NCBI GenBank assembly: GCA_013178165.1 | Contig: JABLXG010000029.1 | Span: forward strand, 1 to 41,860 | Direction: 5' to 3' | DNA length: 41,860 nt | Source of the DNA: Anaerolineae bacterium | GTDB taxonomy: Bacteria > Chloroflexota > Anaerolineae > Aggregatilineales > Ch27 | Part shown: in pieces, positions 9,953 to 17,797 of the stretch | How the letters are laid out: every line of letters starts with the position of its first letter | Position numbering within the stretch: position 1 is the stretch's first letter | Notes under the pieces: generated by a model | Database searches by the model: none | The model's input: the letters and a program-made list of their open reading frames with translations, nothing else | What the model was told of the DNA's origin: nothing | Made by a program: the position numbers and the translations under genes

Positions 9953-11206
9953 TCAGGTACGGTAGTGGCCGTTGATCGAGACGTAATCGTGACTCAGGTC
10001 GCACGTCCACACGGTGCAGGCCGCCGCGCCCAGGCCCAGGTCGAGCCGCGCGCTGACCTCCGGCGCCGCCATGATCGCAGCAGCGGCATCCTCGCTGTAG
10101 GCGGTTGGGCTGCCATCCGCCACCAGTTGCAGGCCGTCAGCGCAATCACTCTCACCTGGCGCGATCCACAGGGCCAGCCGGCCAGCATCCAGCGGCACAC
10201 CGGCGCGCCCCGCCGCCGCCAGGATGCGCCCCCAGTTAGCGTCCCCCCCGTAGAAGGCCGTCTTGACCAGCGGCGATGTAGCAATGGCCATGGCCACCTG
10301 CCGCGCCGTGTCTTCATCCGGTGCGCCGCAGACGTGCAGGGTGATGAAGCGCGTCGCGCCCTCGCCATCCATGACGATATCCCTGGCCAGTTCGGTGCAG
10401 ACCGCCACCAGCGCCGCCTGGAAAGCGGCCAGACCATCCCCGGCGGCGATGGTCACGCCGCTGGCCCCGTTGGCCAGGGCCAGCACAGTATCGTTCGTGC
10501 TCATGTCGCCATCGACGACGATCCGGTTGAAGCTGACCCGGCTGGCGGCGCTCAGGGCAGCCTGCAGCGTGGCAGGAGCCAGCGCGGCGTCGGTGGCGAT
10601 CACGGCCAGCATGGTCGCCATGTTGGGGGCGATCATGCCCGCACCCTTGGCGATCGCGGCGATCGTGTAGTCCCCCTCCGGCGTCTGAACCTGGACGCTG
10701 ACCGTCTTGGGCACGGTATCCGTGGTCAGGATCGCGTCGGCGGCAGCGGCCCAGCCATCCGGGGCCAGGTTCCCGGCCAGGGCGCTTATACCCGCTGCGA
10801 TCTTGTCCATTGGCAGGGGCACGCCAATCACGCCAGTGGAGAGCACGAAGACATCCTCCGCCCGGCAGCCCAACGCCGCGGCAACCAGCGCCGCGCTCTC
10901 CGCAGCGTCGGTCAGGCCCTGCGCGCCGGTGCAGGCGTTAGCGACGCCCGAATTGACAACCACCGCTCGCATCCCGGCAGGGTTGGCCGCCAGGCGGGCC
11001 TGGTCAAGGAGCACGGGCGCGGCCTTGACCTGGTTGGTGGTGAAGACGCCCGCCGCCGCGCAGGGAGTCGCGCTGACGATCAGGGCCATGTCGCGCCGCC
11101 CGGACTTGCGGATGCCCGCCGGGACACCGGCGACGGTGAAACCGCGCACGGGCGCGATGATCGTTTCGACGGTGCTGATCGCGTAATCGGTCATCGTCAG
11201 GGTCAT
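9953..11206 (-). CDS. argJ: Bifunctional glutamate N-acetyltransferase / ornithine acetyltransferase
   Basis: A 417-residue enzyme that moves the acetyl group from N-acetylornithine to glutamate, and in bifunctional forms also acetylates glutamate with acetyl-CoA, closing the acetyl cycle of arginine synthesis. The self-cleavage and nucleophile motif KGAGMIAPNMATML is present, with Thr198 as the N-terminal nucleophile of the beta chain. Other family marks are FTTNQVKAAP, NSGVANACTG, STGVIG, DGDMSTNDT and the C-terminal DLSHDYVSINGHY. It is the last gene of the argCBDJ operon, 142 bases after argD, with a palindromic repeat in the gap. ATG 11206 is preceded by AGGAG at 12 bases; Met5 is an alternative. 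Whether it is mono- or bifunctional cannot be told from sequence. Confidence 0.95.
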   Translation of the reverse strand: MTLTMTDYAISTVETIIAPVRGFTVAGVPAGIRKSGRRDMALIVSATPCAAAGVFTTNQVKAAPVLLDQARLAANPAGMRAVVVNSGVANACTGAQGLTDAAESAALVAAALGCRAEDVFVLSTGVIGVPLPMDKIAAGISALAGNLAPDGWAAAADAILTTDTVPKTVSVQVQTPEGDYTIAAIAKGAGMIAPNMATMLAVIATDAALAPATLQAALSAASRVSFNRIVVDGDMSTNDTVLALANGASGVTIAAGDGLAAFQAALVAVCTELARDIVMDGEGATRFITLHVCGAPDEDTARQVAMAIATSPLVKTAFYGGDANWGRILAAAGRAGVPLDAGRLALWIAPGESDCADGLQLVADGSPTAYSEDAAAAIMAAPEVSARLDLGLGAAACTVWTCDLSHDYVSINGHYRT

Positions 11207-11348: not shown

Positions 11349-12542
11349 CTATCCTCGCAGGATCGCATCCAGCTTCTCCAGCGCTTCGTCCACGTGTGCC
11401 TGCTCCAGGATCAGCGGCGGCACCAGCCGCAGCACGTTCGGCCCGGCGCTGACCATGATCAGGCCGTGCGCATATCCCGCGCTGACCACCTCCGCTGCTG
11501 GAACGGTCAACTCGACGCCGATCATCAGCCCGCGCCCGCGCACCTCGACAATCTGCGGGGCGTGCAGGGCCGCCAGCCCATCCCGCAGGGCTGCGCCCAT
11601 CGCTTCCACATGGCGCAGAAAAGCCGGATCGCTGATCCGTTCCAGCACGACCCTGGCGGCGCTGGCGACCAGCGGCCCGCCGCCGAACGTGCTACCGTGA
11701 TCGCCAACCTCGATGACAGCGGCGATCCGGTCGCTGATCAGCGCCGCGCCGATCGGCAGGCCGCCCGCCAGTGGCTTGGCCAGAGTCATGATGTCGGGCG
11801 TCACACCGGAAGCCTGATGCGCCCACAGCATCCCGGTGCGGCCCATGCCACACTGCACCTCGTCGAAGATCAGGATGGCGTCGTGGGCATCACACAGAGC
11901 GCGCAGGCCCTGCAGGAATTCCGGCGTTGCCACGTGGACTCCGCCCTCACCCTGCACCGGCTCGACGATCACGGCGCAGGTATCCGGCCCGATAATCCCG
12001 GCGGCGGCTTCCAGATCGTTGAACGGCGCGATCGTCACGTCTGGCAGCAGTGGGCGGAACGGGTCCTGGTATCTGGCGCGCGGCGTGACGGACAGCGCCC
12101 CGATCGTGCGCCCGTGAAAGCCATTTTCAAAGGCCACCAGGCCGGTCTTGCCTGTGGCGGGATGCCTGGCGTAGATCCATTTGCGGGCCAGCTTGATCGC
12201 GGCTTCATTGGCTTCCGCGCCGGAGTTGCAGAAGAAGACCTTCCCGGCGAAGCTCAGCGCGCACAGCCGGGCCGCCAGTTCCGCCTGGGGAGCAGTCAGG
12301 TACAGGTTGGAGACATGAATCAGCTGCGCCGCCTGCTGGCTGATGGCGGCGACCAGTGCTGGGTCGCCATAGCCCAGCGCGTTGACCGCGATTCCGGCGG
12401 CCAGGTCCAGGTAGCAGTGGCCCTCAGAGTCATAAAGGTAGACGCCTTCTCCGTGAGTCAACACGAAGGGGGCGCGGGCATAGGTGTGCAGGACACATTG
12501 CGCATCCAGGTCAAGGACGGCAGGCATAGCGGTCAGGGTCAT
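11349..12542 (-). CDS. argD: Acetylornithine aminotransferase
   Basis: A 397-residue class III PLP aminotransferase converting N-acetylglutamate semialdehyde to N-acetylornithine with glutamate as amino donor. Visible marks: FFCNSGAEANEAAIKLARK (PLP phosphate binding), FENGFHGRTIGALS, IVEPVQGEGG, the LIFDEVQCGMGRTG segment with the PLP-binding Asp, and the Schiff-base Lys256 in TLAKPLAGGLPIGA. Its length is normal for ArgD. Its position between argB and argJ in an arginine operon supports ArgD over other ornithine aminotransferases. ATG 12542 follows GGAGA at eight bases; argB ends 29 bases upstream. Confidence 0.96.
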   Translation of the reverse strand: MTLTAMPAVLDLDAQCVLHTYARAPFVLTHGEGVYLYDSEGHCYLDLAAGIAVNALGYGDPALVAAISQQAAQLIHVSNLYLTAPQAELAARLCALSFAGKVFFCNSGAEANEAAIKLARKWIYARHPATGKTGLVAFENGFHGRTIGALSVTPRARYQDPFRPLLPDVTIAPFNDLEAAAGIIGPDTCAVIVEPVQGEGGVHVATPEFLQGLRALCDAHDAILIFDEVQCGMGRTGMLWAHQASGVTPDIMTLAKPLAGGLPIGAALISDRIAAVIEVGDHGSTFGGGPLVASAARVVLERISDPAFLRHVEAMGAALRDGLAALHAPQIVEVRGRGLMIGVELTVPAAEVVSAGYAHGLIMVSAGPNVLRLVPPLILEQAHVDEALEKLDAILRG

Positions 12543-12571: not shown

Positions 12572-13429
12572 CTAACGGGCGGCGGCGCTGGCGGACGCGG
12601 CATCATATGCGCTGGCAGCTGCTGCCGCCAGCGGCGAGGCATCGCTGTGGAAAACCGTCCCGCCGCCGCTTTGCAACCCGGCCAGATCGGTGATCACCGC
12701 CTGCGGGATGCCCAGGGCGACAGCGTGCAGGGCGGTCTGCACCTTGGGGATCATGCCACCGCTGATCACGCCGCTGGCGATCAGGGCCTGGGCCTGCGCC
12801 AAGCTGAGAGAGGGTTGCGGGCGGCCATCAACCAGCACGGCGCTGACATTGGTCAGGAAGACTATCCGCGCCGCGCCGATAGCTTCGGCGATGGCCGCGG
12901 CGGCGTGGTCGGCGTTGACGTTGTACGCCCCGCCATCCTCGCCCAGGGCCAGCGGCGCGATGACCGGCGTGACGTCCGCCGCCAGCAGCCCCAGCAGGAC
13001 ATCCGCCCGTACGGCAGTAATTGTCCCCACACGACCCAGGTCGCCGCCGGGATGCTGGAGTCTGACTCCGCGCAACAGGCCGCGATCCGTCCCGCTAAGG
13101 CCCTGTGCCTCAACGCCCGCTGCGATAAGCTGGCGCACCAGCCGTTTGTTGACGCCCCCGCAGAGCACCATTTCCACCACGGCCAGCGTAGCCTCGTCAG
13201 TCACACGCAGGCCGTCTACCCACTGCGGCACAATGCCAAGCGCTGCCTGAAGCTGCCCGATCTCCTTGCCGCCGCCATGCACGATCACCGCCGGGCGGTC
13301 AAGGGCAGCCACGTAAGCAGCCAGGTCGCGGAGGAAGTCCGGGTTATCGATGTCGTTGCCGCCGATCTTGAGCAGGACCGGCGGAGCAGCAAAAGGGGAA
13401 GGCGGGGTTGAAAGGGTGGTTGTAGACAT
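12572..13429 (-). CDS. argB: Acetylglutamate kinase
   Basis: A 285-residue amino-acid-kinase-fold enzyme that phosphorylates N-acetylglutamate. Marks: the N-terminal KIGGN loop, VIVHGGGKEI, VDGLRVTDEATLAVVEMVL (acetylglutamate binding), YNVNADHAAAAIA, FLTNVSAVL and the GGMIPKV lysine motif. A low-complexity Ser/Thr/Pro N-terminus (about 17 residues) and a short Ala-rich C-terminus are added to the core. This may be the committed, feedback-controlled step; the N-terminal helix typical of arginine-inhibited hexameric forms is not obvious. It lies 40 bases after argC and 29 bases before argD. Confidence 0.95.
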   Translation of the reverse strand: MSTTTLSTPPSPFAAPPVLLKIGGNDIDNPDFLRDLAAYVAALDRPAVIVHGGGKEIGQLQAALGIVPQWVDGLRVTDEATLAVVEMVLCGGVNKRLVRQLIAAGVEAQGLSGTDRGLLRGVRLQHPGGDLGRVGTITAVRADVLLGLLAADVTPVIAPLALGEDGGAYNVNADHAAAAIAEAIGAARIVFLTNVSAVLVDGRPQPSLSLAQAQALIASGVISGGMIPKVQTALHAVALGIPQAVITDLAGLQSGGGTVFHSDASPLAAAAASAYDAASASAAAR

Positions 13430-13469: not shown

Positions 13470-14489
13470 TCAGAGCAGACCGGTCGTTTCCGGCAGGCCG
13501 AACATCAGGTTGAAGTTCTGCACGGCCTGGCTGGAAGCGCCTTTGAGCAGGTTGTCAATCACGGAGACGATCACGACATGCGTGGCGGTTACCGGCGTGA
13601 CAGAAATTGCGCAGATGTTCAGCCGCTGGGCGTGGCGCAGCGTGGCCAGCTGCCCCGCCGGGAGGATGTTCACCAGCGGCTCGGCGGCATAGGTCTCCTC
13701 GTAGAGGCTCTGCAGGCTCGCCGGTGGCCAGGGCGCGGCCAGGGTGACGTAGATCGTCGCCAGCAGCCCCCGGTCTACCGGTAGCAGGTGCGGGGAGAAG
13801 ATCAGCGGCCCGGCCTGGCCGTCCAGCCTGGCGATCTCCTGCTCGATCTCGCCCGTGTGACGGTGGACGCGCCCGATGTTGTACGGGGAGAAGTTGCCAA
13901 ACACCTCCACAAAGTGGGTGCTGGCTTTGGGCGTCCGCCCGGCGCCAGAAACGCCCGACTTGGCATCGACGATGATCGGCGCGCCAGGGGCCAGGGCATG
14001 GGCCGCCAGCAGCGGGTAGAGGCCCAGCAGGGTGGCGGTCGGGTAGCAGCCGGGGTTGGCCACCACCTGCGCCCCAGCGATGGCCGCCCGGTAAATCTCC
14101 GGCAGACCGTAGGGGATGGGCAGCAGCTCCGGGTTGGGATGGGCCGCGCCGTACCACAGCTCAAACGCTTCCGCCGTGTCCAACCGCAGGTCAGCGGAAA
14201 GGTCGATCACCCTGATTCCAGCGGCCTTCGCCCGCGCGGCAACCGGCGCAGAAGCGGTATGCGGCAGGGCCAGGAATACCGCGTCCACGCTGGCCGGGTC
14301 CGCCGCCTCATGAGGGAGATAGGTCAGGGTTGTGCCGGGAACCGGCTGTCCGGCGTCCTGGCTCGAAGTGGCAAAGACCAGCCGGACGGCGGGGTGAGCG
14401 GCCAGCAGCCGGATCAGTTCCGCGCCAGTGTAGCCAGCCGCGCCATAAACGCCAACAGTGATAAAGGGACGGGTTGTCGATTCGGTCAT
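13470..14489 (-). CDS. argC: N-acetyl-gamma-glutamyl-phosphate reductase
   Basis: A 339-residue NADPH-dependent reductase making N-acetylglutamate semialdehyde. The Rossmann motif is VYGAAGYTGAELIRLL; the catalytic Cys148 is in NPGCYPTA; HLLPVDRG carries the catalytic His; KSGVSGAGRTP is the substrate loop. It is the first structural gene of the argCBDJ operon and lies behind a leader-peptide attenuator (14517-14663). The terminator hairpin ends about 30 bases before its start. The ribosome site is weak or distant (AGGAG at about 15 bases, AGCAGG adjacent). Confidence 0.96.
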   Translation of the reverse strand: MTESTTRPFITVGVYGAAGYTGAELIRLLAAHPAVRLVFATSSQDAGQPVPGTTLTYLPHEAADPASVDAVFLALPHTASAPVAARAKAAGIRVIDLSADLRLDTAEAFELWYGAAHPNPELLPIPYGLPEIYRAAIAGAQVVANPGCYPTATLLGLYPLLAAHALAPGAPIIVDAKSGVSGAGRTPKASTHFVEVFGNFSPYNIGRVHRHTGEIEQEIARLDGQAGPLIFSPHLLPVDRGLLATIYVTLAAPWPPASLQSLYEETYAAEPLVNILPAGQLATLRHAQRLNICAISVTPVTATHVVIVSVIDNLLKGASSQAVQNFNLMFGLPETTGLL

Positions 14490-14516
14490 CCTGCTTGCGA
14501 GCCACTCCTGTCAAAC

Positions 14517-14542
14517 AAAAATCCCCCCGGTCTGGGGGGATT
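14517..14542 (-). terminator. Attenuator terminator of the arg operon
   Basis: On the minus strand AATCCCCCC (14542-14534), loop AGACC, GGGGGGATT (14528-14520), then TTTTTG. Nine pairs with a T run make a strong intrinsic terminator located between the leader peptide and argC. A terminator ahead of the first gene only makes sense if it is conditional. Confidence 0.9.
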
Positions 14543-14607
14543 GAGGGTCGTTTGCCGGGTGTACCGTTCCCAGGCGACACTATCCCTGCCAGACCGGGTT
14601 GGTCTGG
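14526..14607 (-). promoter_or_regulatory. Arginine attenuator: alternative RNA pairings
   Basis: Segment 1, CCAGACC (14607-14601), lies directly after the last Arg codon of the leader peptide. Segment 2, CCCGGTCTGG (14598-14589), can pair either with segment 1 (seven pairs) or with segment 3, CCAGACCGGG (14535-14526), over ten pairs. Segment 3 is also the loop and stem of the terminator. When arginine is scarce, a ribosome stalled at the Arg codons would cover segment 1, leave segment 2 free to take segment 3, and stop the terminator from forming. The complementarity is seen directly; the mechanism is inferred from his/trp/leu-type attenuators. Confidence 0.8.
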
Positions 14608-14663
14608 GGACGACGGCGCGGACGGCGCAGTTCGACCACCGGGATAGCGATCAGCAGGGTCAT
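14580..14663 (-). CDS. Arginine-rich leader peptide of the arg operon
   Basis: A 27-codon frame beginning MTLLIAIPVVEL and continuing RRPRRRPQTNPVWQG. Five of six consecutive codons (13, 14, 16, 17, 18) encode arginine: CGC CGT CCG CGC CGT CGT. A GGAG lies 11 bases before the ATG, and the peptide ends 38 bases before the terminator. Its start is about 30 bases after the predicted RNA start. The peptide probably has no function of its own: translation through the Arg codons measures charged tRNA-Arg. CGN clusters do occur by chance in GC-rich DNA, but the match of codon positions with the alternative RNA pairings is hard to explain otherwise. Confidence 0.78.
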   Translation of the reverse strand: MTLLIAIPVVELRRPRRRPQTNPVWQG

Positions 14664-14701
14664 CCGGGCAGATACTCCGCAACGAAAAAGATGATGCCTA
14701 C

Positions 14702-14730
14702 AGGGTAGCAGCCTGCCGGGAGCGCGTCAA
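14702..14730 (-). promoter_or_regulatory. Promoter of the arg operon, TTGACG-N17-TACCCT
   Basis: On the minus strand TTGACG (14730-14725), 17 bases, TACCCT (14707-14702), with RNA start near 14695. The leader peptide begins about 30 bases downstream. No obvious ArgR box overlaps it, consistent with control by attenuation. Confidence 0.7.
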
Positions 14731-15282: not shown

Positions 15283-15891
15283 ATGCCAAGAGCAGTGACC
15301 GAACTCAGGCAAATCCCCTTCGGGTATCTGATCGGCGCACCATTGAAGGCGGCGGTGGAAGCGCAGGCGCTGGCGGCCCGCACCACGGTAGAGTTCATCG
15401 AGAAGGTCGGCTTTAAGGAACAGGATAGCGACATCGGCTCGATCTTCAACGACCTCACCCAGGACGCCAACACCGGCGAGATTCGCAACATCACCTTCAC
15501 CTACAAGAAACTGGATGAAGATGGCGTCGTCAAGACCGTTGAGTTGACCGTACCGATCCTGTCGATTGTCCCCATCCCCTTCATCCGCCTGGATGACATC
15601 ACCATTGACTTCACCGCCAAGCTGACCGATACCATCGCCAGCACCACCAAGAGCGACTTCAAATTCTCCACTGATGCCAAGGGCAAGTTCAAGGCCTGGT
15701 GGTCGCCGGTCAGCATGGAGTTCCGCACCTCCGTTTCCTACCAGAATACGCGGGAGAGCGCGTCCAAGTACGTGCGCGAATACACCATGAATGTCAAGGT
15801 GCACGCCGTGCAGGACAGCCTGCCTGCCGGCCTGGAGCGCGTGCTGGACATTCTGGAGCAATCGATCAAGGAGAAGCCGCCGTCATCATAG
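15283..15891 (+). CDS. DUF2589-family protein
   Basis: A 202-residue protein that I recognise as DUF2589-like. An N-terminal amphipathic helix region (IPFGYLIGAPLKAAVEAQAL, then AARTTVEFIEKVGF) is followed by beta strands, NITFTYKKLD, and the core PILSIVPIPFIRLDDITIDF, then a Ser/Thr/Lys-rich middle, more strands (SVSYQNTRES, YTMNVKVHAV) and a final helix, LERVLDILEQSIKE. There is no signal peptide. Biochemical function is unknown. It opens a four-gene set; the fourth gene (17183) is a paralogue with the same order of elements. ATG 15283 follows CAGGAG. Confidence 0.8.
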   Translation: MPRAVTELRQIPFGYLIGAPLKAAVEAQALAARTTVEFIEKVGFKEQDSDIGSIFNDLTQDANTGEIRNITFTYKKLDEDGVVKTVELTVPILSIVPIPFIRLDDITIDFTAKLTDTIASTTKSDFKFSTDAKGKFKAWWSPVSMEFRTSVSYQNTRESASKYVREYTMNVKVHAVQDSLPAGLERVLDILEQSIKEKPPSS

Positions 15892-17182: not shown

Positions 17183-17797
17183 ATGGCAGGTACAGTCCAG
17201 GGAATCCGGTCTTTACCCTTAGCCGATCTGATCGGCGCGACCCTGGTGGCGATCGTCCAGGCCGATACCGAAGCCGCCAGGGCCACGCTGGATTTCATCG
17301 AGACGGTCGGTTTTGTCCCACCCGCCCAGGAGCAAACCGCTGAAGGTGGCATCGCCGCCGGCAATCTGCGCATGGCGGAGTTCCGCTATAAGAAGCTGGA
17401 CGAAAACAACGAGGTGGCGGAATTCGTGGCGACCGTGCCGGTGCTGGCTCTGGTCCCCATCCCGGCGCTGCAGGTCAAAGACGCCCGCTTCAAGCTCGCC
17501 GCCCAGATCACGGACATCAGCCAGGAGAAACCGGCGGCAACCCCGGCGCCAGCCCCAGCAACGCCGATGGCGCTGGCAGCAACGAACGTCGCTGCCATCA
17601 GCCGTCTGCAGCCGCTGCGGTACCAGCTGCTGGCCAAGCCTGCCGCTGCTTCCGGCGCCAAGGAACAGGAAGTCCGAGGCACCTTCCACATCGAACTGGA
17701 GGTGACCATGGGCCAGGCGGATTTGCCGCTGGGGATGGAAAAGCTGTTCAACCTGATGGATCAGGCCATTCAGGATCACAAGCCAGCTGAGAAATAA
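17183..17797 (+). CDS. DUF2589-family protein, second paralogue
   Basis: A 204-residue paralogue of the 15283 protein: LPLADLIGATLVAIVQADTE with AARATLDFIETVGF, then AEFRYKKLDENNEV and the core PVLALVPIPALQVKDARFKL, ending with a helix (GMEKLFNLMDQAIQDH). The middle, Ser/Thr/Lys-rich in the first copy, is here a Pro/Ala linker (PAATPAPAPATPMALAA), so the exposed region has diverged while the framework is kept. CAGGAGAG precedes ATG 17183. It ends the four-gene set; a long inverted repeat follows. Two paralogues flanking two other genes suggests a hetero-oligomeric structure, which is inference. Confidence 0.8.
   Translation: MAGTVQGIRSLPLADLIGATLVAIVQADTEAARATLDFIETVGFVPPAQEQTAEGGIAAGNLRMAEFRYKKLDENNEVAEFVATVPVLALVPIPALQVKDARFKLAAQITDISQEKPAATPAPAPATPMALAATNVAAISRLQPLRYQLLAKPAAASGAKEQEVRGTFHIELEVTMGQADLPLGMEKLFNLMDQAIQDHKPAEK

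Follow-up and report, generated by a model that had tools for sequence, protein, structure and literature searches.

Attenuation is a textbook mechanism for the control of amino acid biosynthesis, as is, for arginine synthesis, repression by the protein ArgR. The attenuators of the trp, his, leu, thr, ilv and phe operons, described in Proteobacteria and Actinobacteria, combine clustered codons for the end product in a leader ORF, four segments whose pairings (1 to 4) are mutually exclusive, and an intrinsic terminator before the operon, all of which are found in the leader discussed here. In fungi, the arginine attenuator peptide is a leader peptide on an arginine gene whose nascent chain is arrested by free arginine, which is a form of eukaryotic translation control. 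Two bacterial leaders are known to report on arginine by other routes: in the speF leader of Salmonella the ribosome does so by pausing on two adjacent Arg codons of orf34 (PMC6386406), and the rbfL leader peptide of Staphylococcus aureus, which contains Arg codons, senses arginine shortage (PMC13009471). Furthermore, a comparative study assigned attenuators to his, thr and phe genes and T-boxes to arginine genes (PMC1262725), and a terminator survey added the Firmicutes to the Proteobacteria and Actinobacteria, previously the only groups in which leader-peptide systems were known (PMC2965389).

The window, i.e., the whole stretch of 41,860 nt that was analyzed, is contig 29 of a 4.19-Mb genome that is 98.6% complete. 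Judged by argC, its nearest records are a Chloroflexi MAG (96% argC identity) and then two MAGs of the Aggregatilineales, an order in the class Anaerolineae of the phylum Chloroflexota. The gene names argCBDJ of the preliminary description were borne out by NCBIfam for four genes on the minus strand: argC (N-acetyl-gamma-glutamyl-phosphate reductase, 13470-14489, TIGR01850), argB (acetylglutamate kinase, 12572-13429, TIGR00761), argD (acetylornithine transaminase, 11349-12542, TIGR00707) and argJ (ornithine/glutamate N-acetyltransferase, 9953-11206, TIGR00120 and NF003802). The next gene upstream of the argC leader is divergent and starts at 15283 on the plus strand; thus, the terminator located between them belongs to the argC transcript and does not end an upstream one. 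The divergent cluster that adjoins the arg operon contains two DUF2589 (PF11655) proteins (15283-15891 and 17183-17797, both on the plus strand) and, between them, a 256-aa protein that matches nothing in Pfam.

The leader of argCBDJ is very probably an arginine-specific attenuator of transcription that acts through the ribosome, similar in type to those of trp and his. All of its elements are on the minus strand. The promoter TTGACG-N17-TACCCT that had been proposed is located at 14730-14702, with the -35 box at 14730-14725, a 17-nt spacer and the -10 box at 14707-14702; the latter is weak, with 3 of 6 positions matching the consensus, and is preceded by TGC (TG element). Many relatives have layouts of the form TTGAC-N17-TA(C/A)(C/A)(C/A)T, 20-42 nt ahead of the leader ATG. 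A possible Shine-Dalgarno sequence, GGAG (14675-14678), which is also present in the sister genome (L031), precedes the leader ORF (14580-14663), whose 27 codons run from the ATG at 14663 to the TAG at 14580 and encode MTLLIAIPVVELRRPRRRPQTNPVWQG; Arg-rich ORFs are likewise placed in relatives. This is the 27-residue peptide of the preliminary description, and its run CGC CGT CCG CGC CGT CGT (14610-14627) does contain five Arg codons in six, a density attained by about 1% of shuffled upstream sequences.

Segment 1, CCAGACC (14601-14607), had been placed immediately after the last Arg codon; the segment is present, but 2 nt after that codon. It is defined by sequence and pairing energies and lies where a ribosome of assumed footprint size, stalled on the last Arg codon, is expected to cover it. 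Segment 2, CCCGGTCTGG (14589-14598), is separated by 11 nt from the last Arg codon and has both of the alternative partners that had been claimed, because it pairs either with segment 1 (7 bp) or with segment 3 (10 bp). Segment 3, CCAGACCGGG (14526-14535), overlaps the 5' arm of the terminator, its loop and the start of its 3' arm. The intrinsic terminator formed by segments 3 and 4 (14513-14542), with a 9-bp stem, a 5-nt loop and a U-rich tail, was recovered both from the sequence and by an independent terminator scan; its stem-loop AATCCCCCC-AGACC-GGGGGGATT occupies 14542-14520, six of its 9 bp being G-C as previously noted, and its T-rich tail, TTTTTGTTT, spans 14521-14513. The 1:2 hairpin has a computed energy of -11.2 kcal/mol, the 2:3 pairing, modeled as a hairpin, one of -20.1 kcal/mol, and the terminator one of -16.2 kcal/mol; the folding of the window leader relative to shuffles has a z of -2.5.

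From these elements the following course of events may be proposed. RNA polymerase would start a few nucleotides after 14702, with a ribosome trailing on the leader ORF. When tRNA-Arg charged for CGU and CGC is scarce, the ribosome would stall on the last Arg codons and cover segment 1; segment 2 would then pair with segment 3 once this is made, so that the terminator is blocked and argCBDJ is transcribed. With ample arginine, the ribosome would reach the stop codon, where in the window genome it would cover segment 2; upon its release, 1:2 would form, 3:4 would pair, and transcription would end before argC. Leader translation, stalling, termination and the response to arginine are thus the predicted steps of the control.

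The spacing of the elements is consistent with such a ribosome. Segment 2 starts 9-27 nt (median 13) past the last Arg codon across loci, and the leading edge of a ribosome is expected 10-12 nt beyond its A-site codon, so that, for a standard footprint, segment 2 would fall just outside the stalled ribosome and segment 1 beneath it. When the leaders were folded as truncated at the point where segment 3 has just been made, again with a standard footprint assumed, at least 5 antiterminator (2:3) pairs formed at 37 of 38 loci with the ribosome at the last Arg codon, versus 10 of 38 with the ribosome at the stop codon. Equilibrium folding with the full terminator and a stalled ribosome switches the window sequence to the antiterminator, whereas in many relatives the terminator outcompetes it, and therefore the switch in those relatives must be kinetic. 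The leaders of three families (f2, f7 and f8; e.g., L005, L028 and L040) have their stop codon 36-51 nt past the Arg run; a ribosome at this stop leaves segment 2 uncovered, unlike in the window genome, and the basal control in these families may thus differ from that of the window genome.

The comparison of related argC upstream regions, which had been suggested as a check, was carried out on 84 regions from about 31 Anaerolineae families, i.e., 80 regions spread over the class and four loci of the window's family. A strong terminator is found in the argC leader of 77 of the 84, mostly behind an Arg-rich leader ORF, versus 12 of 40 regions from other Chloroflexota classes. Most sampled members of the class thus carry an Arg-type leader in front of arginine genes, and relatives that lack the Arg run or the alternative pairing, which would have spoken against the proposal, are not the rule: both are conserved across the class. 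In the same order and in distant Anaerolineae and Ardenticatenia, the leader peptides contain runs such as RRPRRRP, RRRSRRP, PRRERRSRP, PRRSRRTTS and LPRRIRRSQ; a hairpin and a terminator that ends in a U tail lie downstream. Among the ORFs examined at planctomycete, proteobacterial and Bacteroidetes argC loci, Arg-rich ones are merely scattered.

Codon enrichment was scored in ORFs whose end lies directly ahead of the terminator, with shuffles that preserve dinucleotides as the reference. All 35 families (34 of the class and that of Herpetosiphon) have more Arg codons than the shuffles, by a mean of 1.90 per 8 codons (Wilcoxon p ~1e-7). Pro comes second, with a mean excess of 0.75, because CCN codons stand between the Arg codons. 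Shuffle tests on single loci are often nonsignificant, mostly where the Arg run has shortened to 2-3 codons; since these p-values are too weak in many lineages, they were dropped as an argument. Two features of the argC leaders lie outside this general layout. At four loci (L026, L027, L029 and L066), some 80-130 nt separate the terminator from the conserved portion of argC, a gene that may encode an N-terminal extension there, and at five others (L005, L006, L008, L034 and L036) the 1:2 hairpin is followed, within the leader ORF, by GATTTTTG or GATTTTCG, which looks like an additional weak terminator or a site of pausing.

Further support for the antiterminator was provided by a swap test, in which the summed complementarity of segment 2 with its own terminator 5' arm is compared with that of re-paired partners. 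The own partners reach 819, versus a maximum of 696 in 20,000 permutations (38 loci); when each of 35 families is represented by a single locus, all 5,000 permutations stay below the observed value in each of five draws. The 2:3 helix is altered on both sides between lineages, as in GGTCTGG/CCAGACC, GGTCCGG/CCGGACC and GAGGTC/GACCTC, and also in GAGGTTCG/CGAACCTC and TGAGGTTCG/CGAACCTCA. These statistics cover 2:3, and the 1:2 pairing is seen in individual sequences. Applied to a MAFFT alignment, RNAalifold gives a consensus of 4 terminator pairs only, since the positions of the alternative helices shift from lineage to lineage, and for this reason the swap tests replaced column-wise covariation. 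With Arg runs, alternative pairing and terminator conserved and co-varying throughout the class, the arginine-type attenuation first read from a single leader is upheld as far as sequence can tell.

The choice of codons provides information about what is sensed. At 30 loci, every Arg codon of the runs is CGU (74) or CGC (65), i.e., 139 of 139, with no CGG, CGA, AGA or AGG, whereas CGY accounts for 99 of 192 Arg codons (51%) in 8 genes of the window; the Fisher p of 3e-28 for this difference overstates independence, since the loci are related. At the same time, CGU and CGC swap freely between genomes, and this restriction combined with free interchange suggests that what is sensed is the charging of tRNA rather than the peptide. 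The leader codon bias also agrees with a theory in which the codons of an attenuator are selected according to how sensitive their isoacceptor is (PMC1183508). In eight leaders from other families (L047, L048, L049, L054, L160, L161, L178 and L208), AGG codons occur, often as AGGAGC or AGGAGG, which are Shine-Dalgarno-like; a different tRNA may have come to serve as the sensor in these families, or internal Shine-Dalgarno-like pausing may help.

The same data bear on the possibility that the leader peptide itself senses free arginine as a nascent chain and arrests the ribosome, like its fungal counterpart. A conserved Arg-rich leader peptide would be expected in that case and is present, but such a sensor needs likeness along the peptide, and outside the Arg run the leader peptides of relatives are unlike one another. 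Moreover, the codons are held to CGU and CGC though synonyms would preserve the peptide, and a stall at high arginine would favor the antiterminator, which is the wrong sign for a biosynthetic operon, so that this explanation is very unlikely.

The switch might instead be driven by tRNA, as in a T-box, or by an RNA or protein that binds arginine, the ORF being incidental. T-boxes do control arginine genes in some bacteria (PMC1262725), but no Rfam family reaches its gathering score in the window and no T-box is recognizable there by covariance model. In addition, the entire switch consists of the leader ORF and 40-60 nt beyond it, and the Arg codon enrichment would be left unexplained; an incidental ORF is therefore highly improbable. 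The only Rfam match in the window, Phe_leader (RF01859), is below threshold (22.2 bits, E 0.15; gathering score 55) and was rejected.

Attenuation by a translating ribosome is also predicted for other arginine operons. In the window genome, a second Arg attenuator precedes argG-argH on the minus strand (L211, 500-300; G000:C1, about 193700-193900; genes named by NCBIfam), with the leader peptide MNIAWVNSSVSRLRRRIRRLHIGLAENFGVC, the segment TTGGTCTGG and the terminator CGTCCCCAGACCAAAGCAAGAGGTCTGGGGACG followed by TTTTCG; it differs from that of argC in both leader peptide and hairpin sequence. argG leaders with Arg runs and terminators are also present in three other genomes (G005, G012 and G018), and the OTC-family (argF-like) genes of the window genome, which were checked as well, have no Arg attenuator. 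A covariance model built from 24 leaders, weak in structure, matched 15 of 298 class genomes at one site each, 14 before argC and one before a lone argD; because all 15 sites precede arg genes, a genome-wide sequence search landed on arginine genes only. The argD site, with the leader peptide MNFVNQLPRRFRRRQITRSGFWG, is on the minus strand of a genome from another order of the class (G168; L124, 1650-1500). The model misses most diverged class members and the argG copy, and owing to this insensitivity the prevalence was taken from the directly fetched argC upstream regions. The simpler pattern GGTCTGG-N45-75-CCAGACC occurs at 7 places in the genome, versus 9 for a reversed control, so that the motif by itself is uninformative, and only the places at argC and argG make sense. 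Overall, the genes after the predicted attenuators make arginine: argC, argB, argD, argJ, argG and argH by NCBIfam, and argD in G168.

A chance combination of a constitutive terminator or RNA-stability hairpin with an accidental Arg-rich ORF is hardly credible, for although GC-rich DNA yields many CGN codons and some lineages have few Arg codons, the conservation across families makes a chance origin untenable, and the co-variation in the swap test, the codon restriction, the separate copies before argG and argD and the divergent upstream gene all stand against it.

ArgR, which the preliminary description mentioned as the usual regulator, is absent from the window genome and, as a full-length protein, from the sampled class. 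Neither of its domains (PF01316 and PF02863) was found in the window genome, with E. coli, B. subtilis and other controls positive. Three matches in 298 class genomes barely pass the PF01316 cut-off (positions 24-68/70, in 112-aa ORFs), and these are presumably other winged-helix proteins rather than full ArgR. In the phylum, ArgR-domain matches above the cut-off occur in 27 of 151 genomes, none of them from the class, and several are no more than a few kb away from argC. Among the 40 argC regions from other Chloroflexota classes, clear attenuators are found solely in one family (f82), a member of which (G422) is Herpetosiphon aurantiacus DSM 785, its second contig being 100% identical to plasmid CP000876.1. 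The leader of this species contains CGG CTG CGT CGT CCC CGT, with GAGGTTCGG facing CCGAACCTC.

The find thus appears larger than first noted, i.e., a regulon for arginine attenuation that is conserved within a class in which no ArgR is recognizable. It is reasonably probable that this regulon (argCBDJ, argGH and in places argD) is class-wide and constitutes the main arginine control of Anaerolineae and Herpetosiphon, that it replaced ArgR within Chloroflexota, or the reverse, and that its sensor responds to a single isoacceptor family (CGU/CGC), AGG codons having been adopted instead in some lineages. A codon-run sensor on several arg transcripts in a class of environmental bacteria, where relatives in the phylum retain the repressor, seems a natural regulator replacement. 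Arginine would join the list of sensed amino acids, the several sequence solutions to one switch are test material for attenuation theory (e.g., why only CGU and CGC), and Herpetosiphon aurantiacus DSM 785 is a cultured organism in which arginine attenuation can be tested.

In the open-access literature searched, RNA control of arg genes means T-boxes, and the open-access full texts yielded no account of arginine biosynthesis being controlled by transcription attenuation through a leader peptide, although an earlier prediction is possible. ArgR regulation concerns the same genes and the same physiological logic, but it depends on a DNA-binding protein, which was not found here. The fungal arginine attenuator peptide differs in that its stalling has the opposite sign to that of the window leader. 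The Salmonella orf34 differs in its target, an ornithine decarboxylase, and in acting through Rho, masking of the RBS and RNase G, with no intrinsic terminator (PMC6386406), and rbfL of S. aureus acts on the initiation of rbf translation, with expression lowered by starvation and no terminator switch (PMC13009471). Unlike the trp, his, leu, thr, ilv and phe attenuators, the leaders described here respond, by prediction, to arginine, belong to Chloroflexota and precede two arg operons of a genome without ArgR. To judge by sequence, the mechanism is of a known kind, and what is new about it is the amino acid sensed and the group of bacteria that has it.
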